This document shows positions 1,302-5,929 of a stretch of 5,929 nt of DNA, one piece after another. Every line of letters starts with the position of its first letter. Positions within the stretch are counted from its first letter, which is position 1. Source of the DNA: Pseudomonadota bacterium. GTDB lineage: Bacteria > Myxococcota > UBA9042 > PHBI01. The notes under the pieces are model-generated. The model saw nothing but the letters and a program-made list of their open reading frames with translations, had not been told where the DNA came from and made no database searches. Location: assembly GCA_005772945.1 (NCBI GenBank), contig SXIE01000231.1:1-5929 (forward strand). The letters are read 5' to 3'. The position numbers were made by a program, and so were the translations under genes.

Positions 1302-2894
1302 ATGCAGCGACGATCCCTCCCTCTGGCCCTCCGCGCCGCCGTTTCCGCGCTCTGCGCGCTGGCAGCCGCCTGCCAAGCCCCCGAGCCGGCCCCCTTCGGC
1401 GACCTCACGCTGCCCGCAGCCAGCGAGCACCACCTGGTCCTCGCCGACCGCGCCGCCAAGTCCCTCATCGCCTTCCGACTCGAGGACGGCGAAGTCACTT
1501 TGCGCCGCGACATCCCCCTCTCCGGCACGCCTGATGGCAGCCCCATCGCCATCGACGGCAGCGACACCGTGCTCGTCCTCGAGCCCGACGCGCGCGCGCT
1601 CGACCGCGTCGACCTCGGCTCCGGCGACGTCACGCCCATCGCTCTCGGCGCGCCCTTCACGCGCATCGTCCTCACACCCGACGGCAAGGCCGCGCTCGCC
1701 TTCGCGCCCTACGGCGACTCGGCCGAGGCCTTCAACAACGCCAACGAGGTCGCCCTCGTCGACCTCGCCAGCACCCAGGTCGCGCGACGCACGCTCGCCT
1801 CGCTCGGCGGCGCGCCGCTCTTCGTCGCGTTCTCTCCCGAGCTCGACGGCCCCACCGGCCCCCGCCACTACGCCTTCGTCGCCTCCGACGAGCACCTCGC
1901 GATCGTCAATATGGCTGCCCCCACGATGGTCGAGCGCTCCGTTCCACTCGTCTCGCTCACCGCCGGCGGGCAGCGCACCCCCACCGCGATTTCCTTTGGT
2001 GTGCAAACCAATTCGGTCGGCGCGCCGTCGCTGTGGGGCATCGTCACGACCGCCGAAACGACGGCTGTCTACGCGCTCGAGGTCGTCCCGCTGCCGGGCG
2101 CGCCGACCGACTTCGATGTGCACCTGGTGCAGCTCGCCGGCATGGGGCCGGGCGGCGCCGCGACGCTGGCGAACCTTGCCGGAACCGCTTCCGACGGGGT
2201 CACGAAGCTCGTCGTCCTCGCGACGAACCCGAGCCAGGGCACCCTCACCTTGACCGATCTCGACACCGCCAACGGCGTCGCGACGACGCTCGCGACCGGC
2301 CTCGATCGCATCGCGCTCTTCGACACCGCCGACGGGACGCCATCGGCCATCGTCTGGAGTAGCTACGGCGGCGGGACCCTCTACACCGTCGACCTCGCGG
2401 CGCTCGCGGCCGGCCGCGACCGCGTCGCCACGACCCACGCCATCAAGTACCCGTTCACGGCCGTCACGCGCATCGACCAGACGGCTCTCTTCCTGACCAC
2501 CCCGCGCAATCCTGCCGATCCGGTGCTGGTCTTCGACGCCGAGACCGACCGCGTGACCCCCTTCTCGCACGCTGGAAGGTTCTACGAGGCGAGCATCGAC
2601 CCGGCCGCGGGCCGCCTCCACGCGATCGTCAGCGAGCCCGACGGCGCGAGCTGGCTCGTCACGAGCGAGCTCGCGACGGTCCACACCGAGGCCGCGCCGA
2701 TCCCGGGCGCCGGCTCCCACCACTACCGATTCGCGCGCGGGGCGCACACGATCGCGACCTTCGCGATCGGCGCCAGCGGCTACTTCGACGCCTCCAGCGT
2801 GGTGCTCTGGCCGGCCGATCTTCCGGCCGCCACGGAGTCACTCGCGCTCGGCAGCTTCATCCTCGAGGGTGTCTTCCAAGGAGGTGCACGGTGA
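1302..2894 (+). CDS. Beta-propeller lipoprotein (first gene of operon)
   Basis: This 530-residue protein has a lipoprotein leader: Arg3-Arg4, a hydrophobic Ala/Leu core and Leu-Ala-Ala-Ala-Cys24, the probable lipidation site. The rest is rich in short beta-strand repeats resembling YVTN/YncE-type seven-bladed propellers: hydrophobic strand, turn, then Val-Asp-Leu or Phe-Asp-x-Glu. Clear blade turns are Leu-Thr-Pro-Asp-Gly-Lys (124-129), Val-Ala-Leu-Val-Asp-Leu (150-155), Leu-Thr-Leu-Thr-Asp-Leu (315-320), Tyr-Thr-Val-Asp-Leu (361-365) and Val-Leu-Val-Phe-Asp-Ala (408-413). No catalytic motif is visible; such propellers usually serve in binding or scaffolding. I chose ATG 1302 because GGAG lies 5 bases upstream and the leader starts there; the frame is open upstream from 1137, but that adds 55 residues without a signal and spans the promoter. 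The stop overlaps the next start by four bases. It looks like a distant paralogue of the third operon gene. Function unknown. Confidence 0.88.
   Translation: MQRRSLPLALRAAVSALCALAAACQAPEPAPFGDLTLPAASEHHLVLADRAAKSLIAFRLEDGEVTLRRDIPLSGTPDGSPIAIDGSDTVLVLEPDARALDRVDLGSGDVTPIALGAPFTRIVLTPDGKAALAFAPYGDSAEAFNNANEVALVDLASTQVARRTLASLGGAPLFVAFSPELDGPTGPRHYAFVASDEHLAIVNMAAPTMVERSVPLVSLTAGGQRTPTAISFGVQTNSVGAPSLWGIVTTAETTAVYALEVVPLPGAPTDFDVHLVQLAGMGPGGAATLANLAGTASDGVTKLVVLATNPSQGTLTLTDLDTANGVATTLATGLDRIALFDTADGTPSAIVWSSYGGGTLYTVDLAALAAGRDRVATTHAIKYPFTAVTRIDQTALFLTTPRNPADPVLVFDAETDRVTPFSHAGRFYEASIDPAAGRLHAIVSEPDGASWLVTSELATVHTEAAPIPGAGSHHYRFARGAHTIATFAIGASGYFDASSVVLWPADLPAATESLALGSFILEGVFQGGAR
2878..2885 (+). 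promoter_or_regulatory. Ribosome binding site deciding a GTG start
   Basis: AAGGAGGT is a near-complete anti-16S match lying inside the end of the preceding gene, 5 bases before GTG 2891. It selects this GTG over the ATGs at 2912, 2921 and 2927, none of which has a recognisable site. With the GTGA stop/start overlap it indicates translational coupling. Confidence 0.8.
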
Positions 2895-3577
2895 ACGGCG
2901 GCCCGACGATCATGGCTTCGATGACGATGGCGCTCACGCTCGGGGCGTTCAACGGCGCCGCGCGCGCCGAGCCTGGCCGCTTCGGCCTCGAGCTCGGCCT
3001 CGAGGTCGGTTGGTACCCCACCGAGTCGGTCGCGTATGCGAGCGACGACGTGCGCGGCGCCCAAGGGCTCATCGCCCTGAGCTACCAGCCGATCGACCTC
3101 CTCACGGTCTACGCCGGTTGGCGCCACCTCGGACCGCTCGCGCGCGCCGATTCCTTGGCGCCCAATGGGGCCGCTGGCGCGGATGGCACGGACTTCGCGT
3201 TCGAAACCCAAGGCGACGCCATTGTCGCGGGCGCCCGCCTCACCCTGCCGATCATCGCCGGGCTCTCTTTCGTCGGCGAGCTCGATCTCGAGGCGCTCCA
3301 CGTCGGCACCCGCGTGACGCTCGACGGACAGCACGCCGACACCGGCGCTTGGGCCCCAGGCGCGGTCCCGAAGGTCGGCCTCGCCTACCACGTCCCGCTG
3401 GACGACTGCTTCGCGCTCGATTTCCGCGTCATGGCTGGCTACGCGCTGCGCCTCGACCACGACCTCGATCCGGTGGTGCTCGGCCCCGACCCGTCGGTGC
3501 GCACGCAGCCGACCGATCTCGGCCCCCTCAACCTGAGCGGCCCGGTCCTCGCCGGCACGGTCGCCCTCACCTTCTGA
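2891..3577 (+). CDS. Exported outer-membrane beta-barrel-like protein (second gene of operon)
   Basis: This 228-residue protein has a cleavable leader ending Ala-Arg-Ala26 before Glu-Pro-Gly; the n-region is unusual in lacking a basic residue. The mature part (about 202 residues) alternates hydrophobic and polar residues in strand-sized segments, for example 31-40 (Phe-Gly-Leu-Glu-Leu-Gly-Leu-Glu-Val-Gly), 58-66, 71-78, 110-119, 124-137, 160-168, 172-187 and 217-228. Strands are separated by Asp/Gly/Pro-rich loops, and the chain ends in Phe, as transmembrane barrels recognised by BamA do. Size and pattern suit an 8-strand barrel, but no named family is recognised. Translation starts at GTG within the previous gene's stop, so its dosage is tied to that propeller. 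The next gene follows after 40 bases with no terminator, so it sits between the two propellers in one transcript. Role could be an anchor, a channel or a structural partner; this is inference. Confidence 0.82.
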   Translation: MNGGPTIMASMTMALTLGAFNGAARAEPGRFGLELGLEVGWYPTESVAYASDDVRGAQGLIALSYQPIDLLTVYAGWRHLGPLARADSLAPNGAAGADGTDFAFETQGDAIVAGARLTLPIIAGLSFVGELDLEALHVGTRVTLDGQHADTGAWAPGAVPKVGLAYHVPLDDCFALDFRVMAGYALRLDHDLDPVVLGPDPSVRTQPTDLGPLNLSGPVLAGTVALTF

Positions 3578-3617
3578 GCGCCCCTCAGACCCACACCCCA
3601 CGCCCAGGAGCTCTCGC

Positions 3618-5321
3618 ATGCGCCATCCACGTCCGTTCGCGCCACTTTCCCGTCTCGTCCTCACCCTGTGTGCGTCCTGCGGCATCGGCGGCATCGGCGG
3701 CATCGGCGCCTGCGGCGCGGCCGACGGGTCCGCCAGCTTCAGCGAGCTCGGCAACTGGTCGGGCGTCGACACCTCGCCGACCGCTGCGACCGACACCGCC
3801 GCGACCGACACCGGTCCGACCGACACGGCGTCGGACGACGTACTGCCGTTCGACACCGCCGTCGACATGGCCCCCGAGCTGCCGCCGCCGCCGCCCCCCG
3901 AGGAGGAGCTCGACTTCGATCTCCGCACCCCCGAGGCGGCCGAGAGCTTTCTCTACATTCCGTCGGCCGGACTCGACGCGCTCATCGTCGTCGACGCCCG
4001 CTCGCTCGCGGTCGAGGTCGTCGAGGTGGGCGTTGGACCCATCGCCGTGCGCGCGCTCCCCGACGACGGTGGCGCGATCGTCTTGAACGCCGCCTCGAGC
4101 GACGTGTCGATCGTCCGGCCCGATCCCGATCGCGACCCGCCGTTCTCGGTGCTCACGCTCGATGTCGTCCCGGGCGCCAATCGCCTCGTGCTGTCGCCGC
4201 GCGCCGAGCTCGCCTTCGCCTGGTACGACGAGCGCGAGGACCACACCTTGGGAGGGGTCGGCGGGCTCCAAGATGTGTCGGCGATTCGCCTCGCGCCGGG
4301 CGATGAGGGGGTCATGAACCTGGCCGTCGGACGGCGCCCCGAGCGCATCCACTTCGCCGACAACGACAGCCTCGTCCTCATCGACTGCGAGGACGGGATC
4401 AGCGGCGCCTACCTGCGCGACCTCACCAAAAACGTGTTTCTCACGCCGGTGCCGACCAATCGCGACCCGTTCCACGTCCCGCACGATCGCGAGATCGTGA
4501 CGACCCCGGATGGCCACTTCGCGATCGTGCGCGACCTCGATCACGCGTCGCTGGCGTGGGTCGATCTGCAGACGGGGACCTTGGCGACGCTCGAGCTTCC
4601 GGGCTGGGCGACCGATCTCGAGCTCACCCCCGACGGCAAGACGCTCATCGCGACGCTGCCCGGGCTGAAGGAGGCGCTGGTCGCCGATCTGCCGGACGCG
4701 TTCGCGCTGCCGGTCGCAGACGAATCCAACCCCCATGTTCACTTCGTGCCGACCGGGGCGGCCTTCGGTGCGACGGTCCTCACCGCGGACGGCCGCCGCG
4801 CCCTGCTCTACTCGACCACGCCCGGGATCCAGGCGATCGGCATGCTCGACATCGTCGCCCTCTCGGCCGTCATCCGCCCGCTCGACAAGGAAGTACGGGC
4901 GGTGCTCGTGTCGCCGGATTCACGCAAAGCGGCGCTCCTCCACCGCTACTACTCGGGCAGCGGCTCGCTGGCGACCAGCCACGGCTATACCGTCCTCGAT
5001 CTGGCGAGCGGCTACACGAAGCTCATCACCACGCCACACGAGGTGACCGACGTCGTGTTCACCGACGATGCGACCGAGCTCTATGCGCTCGTCCCCGATC
5101 CGACGCGCGCCGCCCACGAGGTCGACCGGGTCGAGACCTCCAGCTTCGCGGTCCAGGTCTATGCGGTGCCGGACGCGCCCGTGTTCGTCGGGGCGCTGCG
5201 CGGCGCGAATCAGGTCGCCATCTCGCTCGCCAATCCGACCGGGTGGATCACGTTCATCGACAGCGCTACGGGGACGGTGCGGCAGCTCAACTCGTTCGAG
5301 CTGAACGGCTTCATCCGCTGA
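3618..5321 (+). CDS. Beta-propeller lipoprotein with Thr/Asp/Pro linker (third gene of operon)
   Basis: This 567-residue protein starts at ATG 3618, with GGAG 7 bases upstream. The leader has Arg2, Arg5 and Arg12 and a short hydrophobic core, then two candidate lipidation cysteines: Cys21 in Cys-Ala-Ser-Cys, or Cys32 in Ile-Gly-Ala-Cys, which fits the lipobox better. Between them is a triple Gly-Ile-Gly repeat. Residues 33-99 are a low-complexity spacer: three ATDTx units (57-71), then six Pro (89-94) and three Glu (95-97), typical of linkers holding a domain away from a membrane. From about 110 onward are propeller-like repeats: Ile-Val-Val-Asp-Ala (122-126), Thr-Thr-Pro-Asp-Gly-His (295-300), Leu-Ala-Trp-Val-Asp-Leu (312-317), Leu-Thr-Pro-Asp-Gly-Lys (336-341), Val-Ser-Pro-Asp-Ser (431-435) and Ile-Thr-Phe-Ile-Asp-Ser (544-549). 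No enzyme motif is visible. The C-terminal Ser-Phe-Glu-Leu-Asn-Gly-Phe (559-565) echoes the end of the first operon gene. Function unknown; likely a surface or periplasmic binding scaffold. Confidence 0.88.
   Translation: MRHPRPFAPLSRLVLTLCASCGIGGIGGIGACGAADGSASFSELGNWSGVDTSPTAATDTAATDTGPTDTASDDVLPFDTAVDMAPELPPPPPPEEELDFDLRTPEAAESFLYIPSAGLDALIVVDARSLAVEVVEVGVGPIAVRALPDDGGAIVLNAASSDVSIVRPDPDRDPPFSVLTLDVVPGANRLVLSPRAELAFAWYDEREDHTLGGVGGLQDVSAIRLAPGDEGVMNLAVGRRPERIHFADNDSLVLIDCEDGISGAYLRDLTKNVFLTPVPTNRDPFHVPHDREIVTTPDGHFAIVRDLDHASLAWVDLQTGTLATLELPGWATDLELTPDGKTLIATLPGLKEALVADLPDAFALPVADESNPHVHFVPTGAAFGATVLTADGRRALLYSTTPGIQAIGMLDIVALSAVIRPLDKEVRAVLVSPDSRKAALLHRYYSGSGSLATSHGYTVLDLASGYTKLITTPHEVTDVVFTDDATELYALVPDPTRAAHEVDRVETSSFAVQVYAVPDAPVFVGALRGANQVAISLANPTGWITFIDSATGTVRQLNSFELNGFIR
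3681..3707 (+). repeat. Triple 9-base tandem repeat in lipoprotein leader
   Basis: Three identical copies of GGCATCGGC (3681-3689, 3690-3698, 3699-3707) encode Gly-Ile-Gly three times, in frame, between two candidate lipid-anchor cysteines. Unit length is a multiple of three, so slippage would alter leader length without a frameshift. Confidence 0.85.
3786..3830 (+). repeat. Three 15-base tandem units encoding the ATDTx linker
   Basis: Units at 3786-3800, 3801-3815 and 3816-3830 differ by a few bases and encode ATDTA, ATDTG and PTDTA (residues 57-71). The sequence divergence shows an older expansion than the 9-base repeat upstream. It forms part of the flexible, potentially surface-spanning linker. 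Confidence 0.85.
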
Positions 5322-5323
5322 TG

Positions 5324-5343
5324 AGTCACCCGGGTGACTTTTT
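5324..5343 (+). terminator. Intrinsic terminator of the propeller operon
   Basis: AGTCACCC/GGGTGACT is a perfect 16-base palindrome (5324-5339) running into five T (5339-5343), starting 2 bases after the stop of the third operon gene. In RNA it would fold as a 6-bp stem with a CCGG tetraloop followed by a U-run. On the minus strand the stem is preceded by A and not followed by T, so it should not terminate the convergent cytochrome gene. Confidence 0.72.
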
Positions 5344-5418: not shown

Positions 5419-5929
5419 TCAGGGGCTGGGACAGCCGGTCATCTCGCGCACCCAGCGCGTGACGACGTCGACCCCGGCCTCGTCGATGCGCGCGCTCCCA
5501 AGCGGCGGCATCTGCCCCGGGAGCTCCGTCCCGCGGCGGGCGATGCGGGCGACGAGGACGCTGTTCTCGGGCGCGCCGGGAGCCAGGATCCGGGTGGCCG
5601 CGGCGCCGCCCGGCAGGCCGAGATCGCCGCGCGTCGGTGGCACGTCGCAGATGTTCATCTGCGCGAGCGGGATGGACGCGCGAAGGTCGAGGTTCGTGCC
5701 GCTCGTACCGCCCGGGGTGTGGCACGCGCTGCAGTTGAGGTGGAGCCAGGCGCGGGCGCGGCTCTCGAGGCTCGCGCTCGCGTCGCCGAGCGCGGGATGC
5801 GGTGAGACGGCGCCGAGCGTCTCGGCGCTCGGCACCTCGGGGGTCGGCGCGAAGAGCCCGAAGGCGCGCCACGCCAAGAGCTGGTTCACGCGGGCGCCGC
5901 CCAGCACCCAGGGATAGGCGCTCGAAACC
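5419..5929 (-). CDS. Cytochrome c-domain protein, C-terminal part only
   Basis: The frame is open from the right edge to TGA at 5419-5421, giving the last 169 residues; the N-terminus lies outside the window, so internal GTG or ATG codons (such as 5907) are not starts. A single covalent haem c site, Cys66-Ser-Ala-Cys69-His70 in window numbering, lies in Leu-Asn-Cys-Ser-Ala-Cys-His-Thr-Pro-Gly-Gly. Met140 in Met-Pro-Pro-Leu-Gly-Ser is the likely distal haem ligand. The segment Asn-Ile-Cys-Asp-Val-Pro-Pro, then Gly-Asp-Leu-Gly and Ala-Pro-Gly-Ala-Pro-Glu-Asn-Ser, recalls the C-terminal domain of large SO2930/HNE_0200-type cytochrome proteins (family named from memory), often fused to other domains in myxobacteria. 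It should act in periplasmic or extracytoplasmic electron transfer; the substrate depends on the missing part. It converges on the propeller operon and is probably an independent unit. No T-run terminator is visible after its stop. Confidence 0.85.
   Translation of the reverse strand, partial: VSSAYPWVLGGARVNQLLAWRAFGLFAPTPEVPSAETLGAVSPHPALGDASASLESRARAWLHLNCSACHTPGGTSGTNLDLRASIPLAQMNICDVPPTRGDLGLPGGAAATRILAPGAPENSVLVARIARRGTELPGQMPPLGSARIDEAGVDVVTRWVREMTGCPSP

Follow-up and report, generated by a model that had tools for sequence, protein, structure and literature searches.

An operon of Myxococcota predicted to pair an outer-membrane barrel with two paralogous lipoprotein beta-propellers

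The window analysed here is a stretch of 5,929 nucleotides from a bacterium of the Myxococcota (contig SXIE01000231.1, assembly GCA_005772945.1). Open reading frame (ORF) analysis placed three ORFs, designated A, B and C, on the same strand (Table 1). The GTG start codon of B overlaps the stop codon of A by four bases (GTGA), and B and C are separated by 40 bases; the coordinates, overlap and gap given in an earlier, sequence-only reading of this DNA all agree with the ORF positions. At E≤1e-3, relatives were found for all three ORFs (18 for A and 58 for C among about 8000 candidates scored; 6 for B, the window's own protein included), so A, B and C are real genes. The closest relatives share 99% identity with A, 81% with B (its own copy aside) and 93% with C. 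No Pfam or NCBIfam model matches any of the three proteins above its curated cut-off, in line with the earlier statement that none had a recognised function. Export signals, also proposed there for all three, were found as a lipobox in A and C and as an apparent signal peptide, identified by eye, in B.

The single terminator that had been placed after the third gene was only partly confirmed. A perfect 16-base palindrome (5324-5339) and five T residues (5339-5343), the run beginning on the last base of the palindrome, are present, but the predicted fold is not stronger than that of shuffled sequence (z -0.93), so a strong terminator after C was rejected. The palindrome was also missing from one of the scans of the window.

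Two further genes lie on the minus strand of the window. The first (273-986) encodes a dual-specificity phosphatase (PF22785, 2e-22; also PF22784 and PF00782) with the motif HCEGGRGRT; if translation began at an internal MHTNRQ, with MLGC after it, the product would be a lipid-anchored phosphatase located outside the cytoplasm. The second (5419-5928) is cut and matches TIGR03806, the SO2930-family diheme cytochrome c, over the C-terminal half of the model (E 3.7e-26; score 92 bits, cut-off 313.3).

Table 1. Features of the three-gene locus, in window coordinates.
Feature	Position	Strand	Basis or remark
Gene A: lipoprotein beta-propeller (predicted)	1302..2894	+	530 aa; family matches, AF2 model, paralogy with C
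Lipobox of A, A-A-A-C24 (LAAAC24)	1362..1373	+	cysteine in 39/39 aligned A
Gene B: 8-stranded OmpA-like outer-membrane barrel (predicted)	2891..3577	+	228 aa, GTG start
Probable signal peptide of B, cleavage between ARA and EP	2891..2968	+	by eye; model helix 5-20, low confidence
Long fourth loop of B, residues 188-216	3452..3538	+	alignment, model; extracellular side inferred from strand order
Gene C: lipoprotein beta-propeller (predicted), paralogue of A	3618..5321	+	567 aa; profile matches to PDB propellers
Lipobox of C, I-G-A-C32	3702..3713	+	cysteine in 50/50 aligned C
Low-complexity tether of C, residues 33-93	3714..3896	+	alignment
Site of C family signature QxHPxGR, here LANPTGW (residues 537-543)	5226..5246	+	C family alignment
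Possible terminator (weak): 16-base palindrome and five-T run	5324..5343	+	sequence, folding against shuffles

Both A and C are predicted lipoproteins, with an invariant cysteine in a lipobox that follows a signal peptide. Of the 41 A and 58 C sequences, 39 and 50 respectively were aligned, those outside 480-900 aa being omitted. A relaxed lipobox pattern fits 37 of 40 A proteins and 47 of 54 C proteins, and a stricter filter passes fewer (19/40 and 33/54). Directly after the tether of C lies a P-E-x-E motif, in which E95 is conserved in 96% and E97 in 98% of the 50 C sequences.

The sequence-only reading had also taken the two flanking proteins for propellers, and this is supported for each by a different line of evidence. 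The AF2 model of A (pLDDT 79.5, pTM 0.79) finds propellers as its structural matches, which identifies A as a predicted propeller. The number of blades was left unfixed because the rmsd to the best matches is large (6.4 over 299 residues) and the query-normalised Foldseek TM-scores are low (0.18-0.40 among the 50 matches listed). For C, the assignment as a probable propeller comes from profile matches to solved propeller structures (1l0q, E 1.9e-17; 3scy, 7.2e-5; 3vgz YncE, 0.0033) and from homology to A. In a profile-profile comparison, A and C align over 441 columns with 98.7% probability (E 2.3e-16), which indicates that they are paralogues.

The C family carries a signature, QxHPxGR (Q in 94%, H in 88%, G in 100% and R in 94% of 49 sequences), that is replaced by LANPTGW in the window and by LDNPTGW in L070 and L071; downstream of this site, T-x-T-G becomes Q-x-N-S. 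Since P, T, G and W are invariant among 23 close relatives (alignment A4), the loss appears to be a clade-specific switch in the window's own C subclade.

The middle protein had been guessed to be a barrel, and the structural model of B agrees: eight antiparallel strands are predicted to close into a barrel. The window protein ends in LTF, and the C-terminal residue is F in 32 and F or W in 34 of 41 B sequences, as in the aromatic signal for the BAM machinery. The PF13505 cut-off is passed by four of ten B relatives. With the N-terminus assumed to lie inside, as is usual, the loops of 13, 10, 2 and 29 residues would be external, and the turns of 2, 2 and 5 residues internal. The best-kept stretch of B (LG..N.SG; LG.L..SG phylum-wide) maps near the end of the longest of these external loops. 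Several B relatives are longer, at 276-336 aa (L088, L114, L118, L119 and L124-L128), and the N-termini of most of these, inspected by eye, show a Pro/Ala-rich extension before the barrel.

A first hint of linkage came from six contigs that appeared to be common to the A and C match lists. A scan of species genomes returned three loci, and all three of their genomes also carry A. Within the window's class, the C profile matched 25 of 52 genomes (E≤1e-8) and the A profile 22 of 52 (E≤1e-5, with fragments or C genes among the rows). A B profile made from six closely related sequences matched only 3 of 52 (E≤1e-3). Twenty of the 28 fetched contig stretches with a match hold the order A-B-C, to which the window adds another. 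In 17 of these 20 an ORF of 212-276 aa lies between A and C; in the other three (L072, L089 and L090), which lack such an ORF call, the profile places a B of 214-253 aa there. The remaining stretches comprise two with A-B that end 0.2-0.3 kb short of the contig end (L091 and L092), four with C only (L035, L078, L094 and L095, the last two being fragments at contig ends) and two without a trio (L093 and L096). The A gene of L075 (G046:C14) contains an in-frame TAG codon in one match and appears as two ORFs, which may reflect a broken gene or an assembly error.

The module extends well beyond this class, to about four in ten of the sampled Myxococcota genomes. With the top three candidates per genome scored, C was found at E≤1e-15 in 157 of 377 genomes of the phylum, identified as Myxococcota from the names that related records bear; the C and B counts vary with the thresholds and with the small number of candidates scored. 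Extending the B profile across the phylum needed position-defined B genes as input, and the broader B alignment matched 154 of the 377 genomes (E≤1e-5). Both C and B occur in 139 genomes, C only in 18, B only in 15 and neither in 205 (Fisher p 5.5e-64, a value that takes no account of kinship). For 104 genomes the capped tables give the places of both; in 96 of these the best B match lies within 9 kb of a listed C, and in the other eight the listed places are on different contigs.

Forty C loci from outside the class, 20 picked for long contigs and 20 in rank order, provide further evidence. Scattered homologues had been named beforehand as one of two outcomes that would refute the sequence-only reading, the other being structures without the barrel and propeller folds, and neither occurred: in 36 of these 40 C-selected loci, C is found together with B and a gene in the A position. 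Three of the others are cut at contig ends (L122 in the long-contig set, L134 and L138 in the rank-order set), and one is an orphan C (L121), which leaves 18 of 20 in each set. In the long-contig set all 18 are C-(C)-A-B, and a barrel gene follows the A position in each, with B-profile E values of 8e-5 to 2e-32. This profile was built from position-defined genes of the window's class and their close homologues; because the 18 test loci are absent from it, the matches are independent evidence for the homology of B. The orphan (G122:C108) sits on a 299-kb contig with no A or B nearby, and its genome contains two more C genes, a near-copy located where a contig ends (L122) and one close to a B match (G122:C87).

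Conservation of the trio, which the sequence-only reading had suggested testing in Myxococcota genomes, thus holds for linkage and fails for a fixed order, since A-B-C, C-(C)-A-B and C-A-B-C all occur. Outside the class, 34 of the 40 loci are C-(C)-A-B and two are C-A-B-C (L151 and L152), and C is often duplicated. A adjoins B in every complete locus; the 59 A-B junctions counted range from -37 to +72 bases, with 32 at -4, on gene calls and start codons made by a simple script. The C-A-B-C loci, in which a C gene flanks A-B on either side, form a natural link between the orders C-A-B and A-B-C.

A tree computed with a quick method from 88 proteins of the A and C families, with one long branch and 18 rows of odd composition, separates A from C at a branch with 100% SH-aLRT, three divergent rows apart. 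The A-position genes of L120, L123 and L132 are divergent propellers that fall on the C side of the tree, outside the A clade, and the A position can therefore be occupied by a gene other than an A orthologue. The A proteins of the window's class form one group (support 92) and its C proteins a 20-row group (93). As both supports are below the 95 mark, the tree makes a single change of gene order likely, short of proven.

Among the loci clustered, no neighbour family besides A, B and C occurs in more than five. The ten neighbours scanned are diverse: an S49 protease twice, M66- and matrixin-like peptidases, a glucose/sorbosone dehydrogenase, a DEAD helicase, an RNase III, a kinase, a toastrack protein and one without a match. 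On these grounds, the neighbours were rejected as a clue to function. In four loci (L079, L080, L081 and L082) one gene family, confined to them, lies directly upstream of A, and the two members scanned (L079 and L082) are S49 (SohB-like) proteases. A role in anti-phage defence was also rejected, as neither A, B nor C has a PADLOC match at E≤0.01. No relatives were found on viral contigs.

Taken with the predicted folds, the linkage suggests that A, B and C act together, and the operon may well encode one outer-membrane complex, a multi-propeller surface platform that binds a protein or glycan partner; we hold this reading tentatively. After export of B, the BAM machinery would fold it into an eight-stranded barrel, too narrow to form a large pore, which would serve as an anchor in the membrane or as a landing pad. 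The lipoproteins A and C would be sorted to the outer membrane, where A would dock on B. C, in one or two paralogous copies, would join as a second propeller, carried in the window on a flexible tether of about 60 residues. The assembled platform would most likely stand on the cell surface, and would more probably bind a partner than catalyse a reaction. One complex is favoured by a linkage that survives reordering and by lipid cysteines that are invariant among the aligned rows; against it count the orphan C, the 18 genomes with C and no B match, the 15 with B and no C match, and the three A-position genes outside the A clade.

The surface side is favoured because the best-kept stretch of B sits at the long loop placed outside by strand order. 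Against it count that loop's partly low model confidence (below 50 for residues 202-206), a third outside loop of only two residues, and the Pro/Ala-rich extensions of several B relatives (e.g. L124 and L126), which would be periplasmic. These extensions also suit an unlikely but still serious alternative, in which the same three proteins face the periplasm, the barrel as outer-membrane anchor and the propellers as a BamB- or TolB-like scaffold that helps to assemble the envelope or contacts peptidoglycan. Tethered lipoproteins commonly face the periplasm, and the S49-type genes upstream of A would fit such a role, but these are confined to four loci, and the most conserved part of B lies on the face assumed to be extracellular.

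It is improbable that the propellers are instead enzymes (lactonase, dehydrogenase or nitrous-oxide-reductase-like) that act on a small substrate, with the barrel as a small porin and without a stable complex. The C profile matches hydrazine synthase beta in the PDB (E 5.2e-13), cytochrome cd1 nitrite reductase is among the structural matches of A, and N188, R305 and D333 of C, whether catalytic or structural, are conserved in 96% or more of the 50 aligned sequences. There are also weak C matches to TIGR03866, NF052340 and NF052460, and one C relative matches the first two. Against this, the window scores only 15.8-17.2 bits where the cut-offs are 287-700, the near-invariant QxHPxGR is gone from the window's own C subclade, and an eight-stranded barrel is no obvious metabolite pore. 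Memberships in the lactonase family PF10282 for A (11.4 bits against 21.7), the PQQ-associated propeller family TIGR03866 for C (17.2 against 287.3) and the L-NosZ and hydrazine synthase beta equivalogs for C (15.8 and 16.4 against 700 and 560) were all rejected, as every match of A, B or C to an enzyme family is below its cut-off. Finally, although conserved neighbours need not form complexes, it is very unlikely that the three genes are merely co-inherited with unrelated envelope roles, given that they stayed adjacent through rearrangement and that no other neighbour is as widely kept.

It is quite improbable that B is a dedicated display device, which threads or flips its own tethered propellers to the cell surface and stays as their base; if it were, each operon would carry a private lipoprotein exporter together with its cargo.

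Myxococcota include gliding, social and predatory bacteria, and their outer surface is poorly mapped. The spread of the module and its stability through rearrangement suggest that it does something important, and the trio looks like a conserved yet unstudied part of this surface. With three proteins and one predicted complex, it offers a small, concrete target. No description of a barrel-propeller operon was found in full-text searches of a library that lacks most subscription papers; the papers that surfaced were PMC13018210 and PMC8460266, the latter describing a Tad-like killing apparatus of Myxococcus in a main text that does not use the word 'propeller'.

Several known systems invite comparison. 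Like the BAM complex, where the lipoprotein propeller BamB works with an outer-membrane barrel, the operon combines a lipidated propeller with a barrel; unlike it, the barrel has 8 strands rather than 16, POTRA domains are absent, the genes form their own operon, and neither A nor C has a PQQ-like repeat Pfam match at E≤1. In RcsF-OmpA, a lipoprotein with a disordered linker associates with the 8-stranded OmpA barrel, which parallels a tether beside an OmpA-like barrel; the present operon differs in its propeller domains, its two or three lipoproteins and the grouping of its genes in one operon. It would add a kind of barrel-lipoprotein partnership whose lipoproteins are propellers. B itself resembles the 8-stranded OmpA/OmpW-type barrels (PF13505, OMP_b-brl), but the window protein has no Pfam match and no C-terminal OmpA peptidoglycan domain, and its gene is linked to propeller lipoprotein genes. 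By its PDB profile matches, C resembles propellers of the YncE, YVTN and 6-phosphogluconolactonase type, whereas the operon propellers, at about 550 aa, are longer, carry a lipid anchor and a tether, and are paired with a barrel gene, and A and C of the window score below every Pfam and NCBIfam cut-off. Named C relatives are recorded as 'hypothetical protein', 'YncE family protein' or 'DNA-binding beta-propeller fold protein YncE'; the taxon labels of these records are Myxococcota, Deltaproteobacteria, Kofleriaceae or Oligoflexia, and one distant relative (P0048) carries a precomputed PF10282 label.
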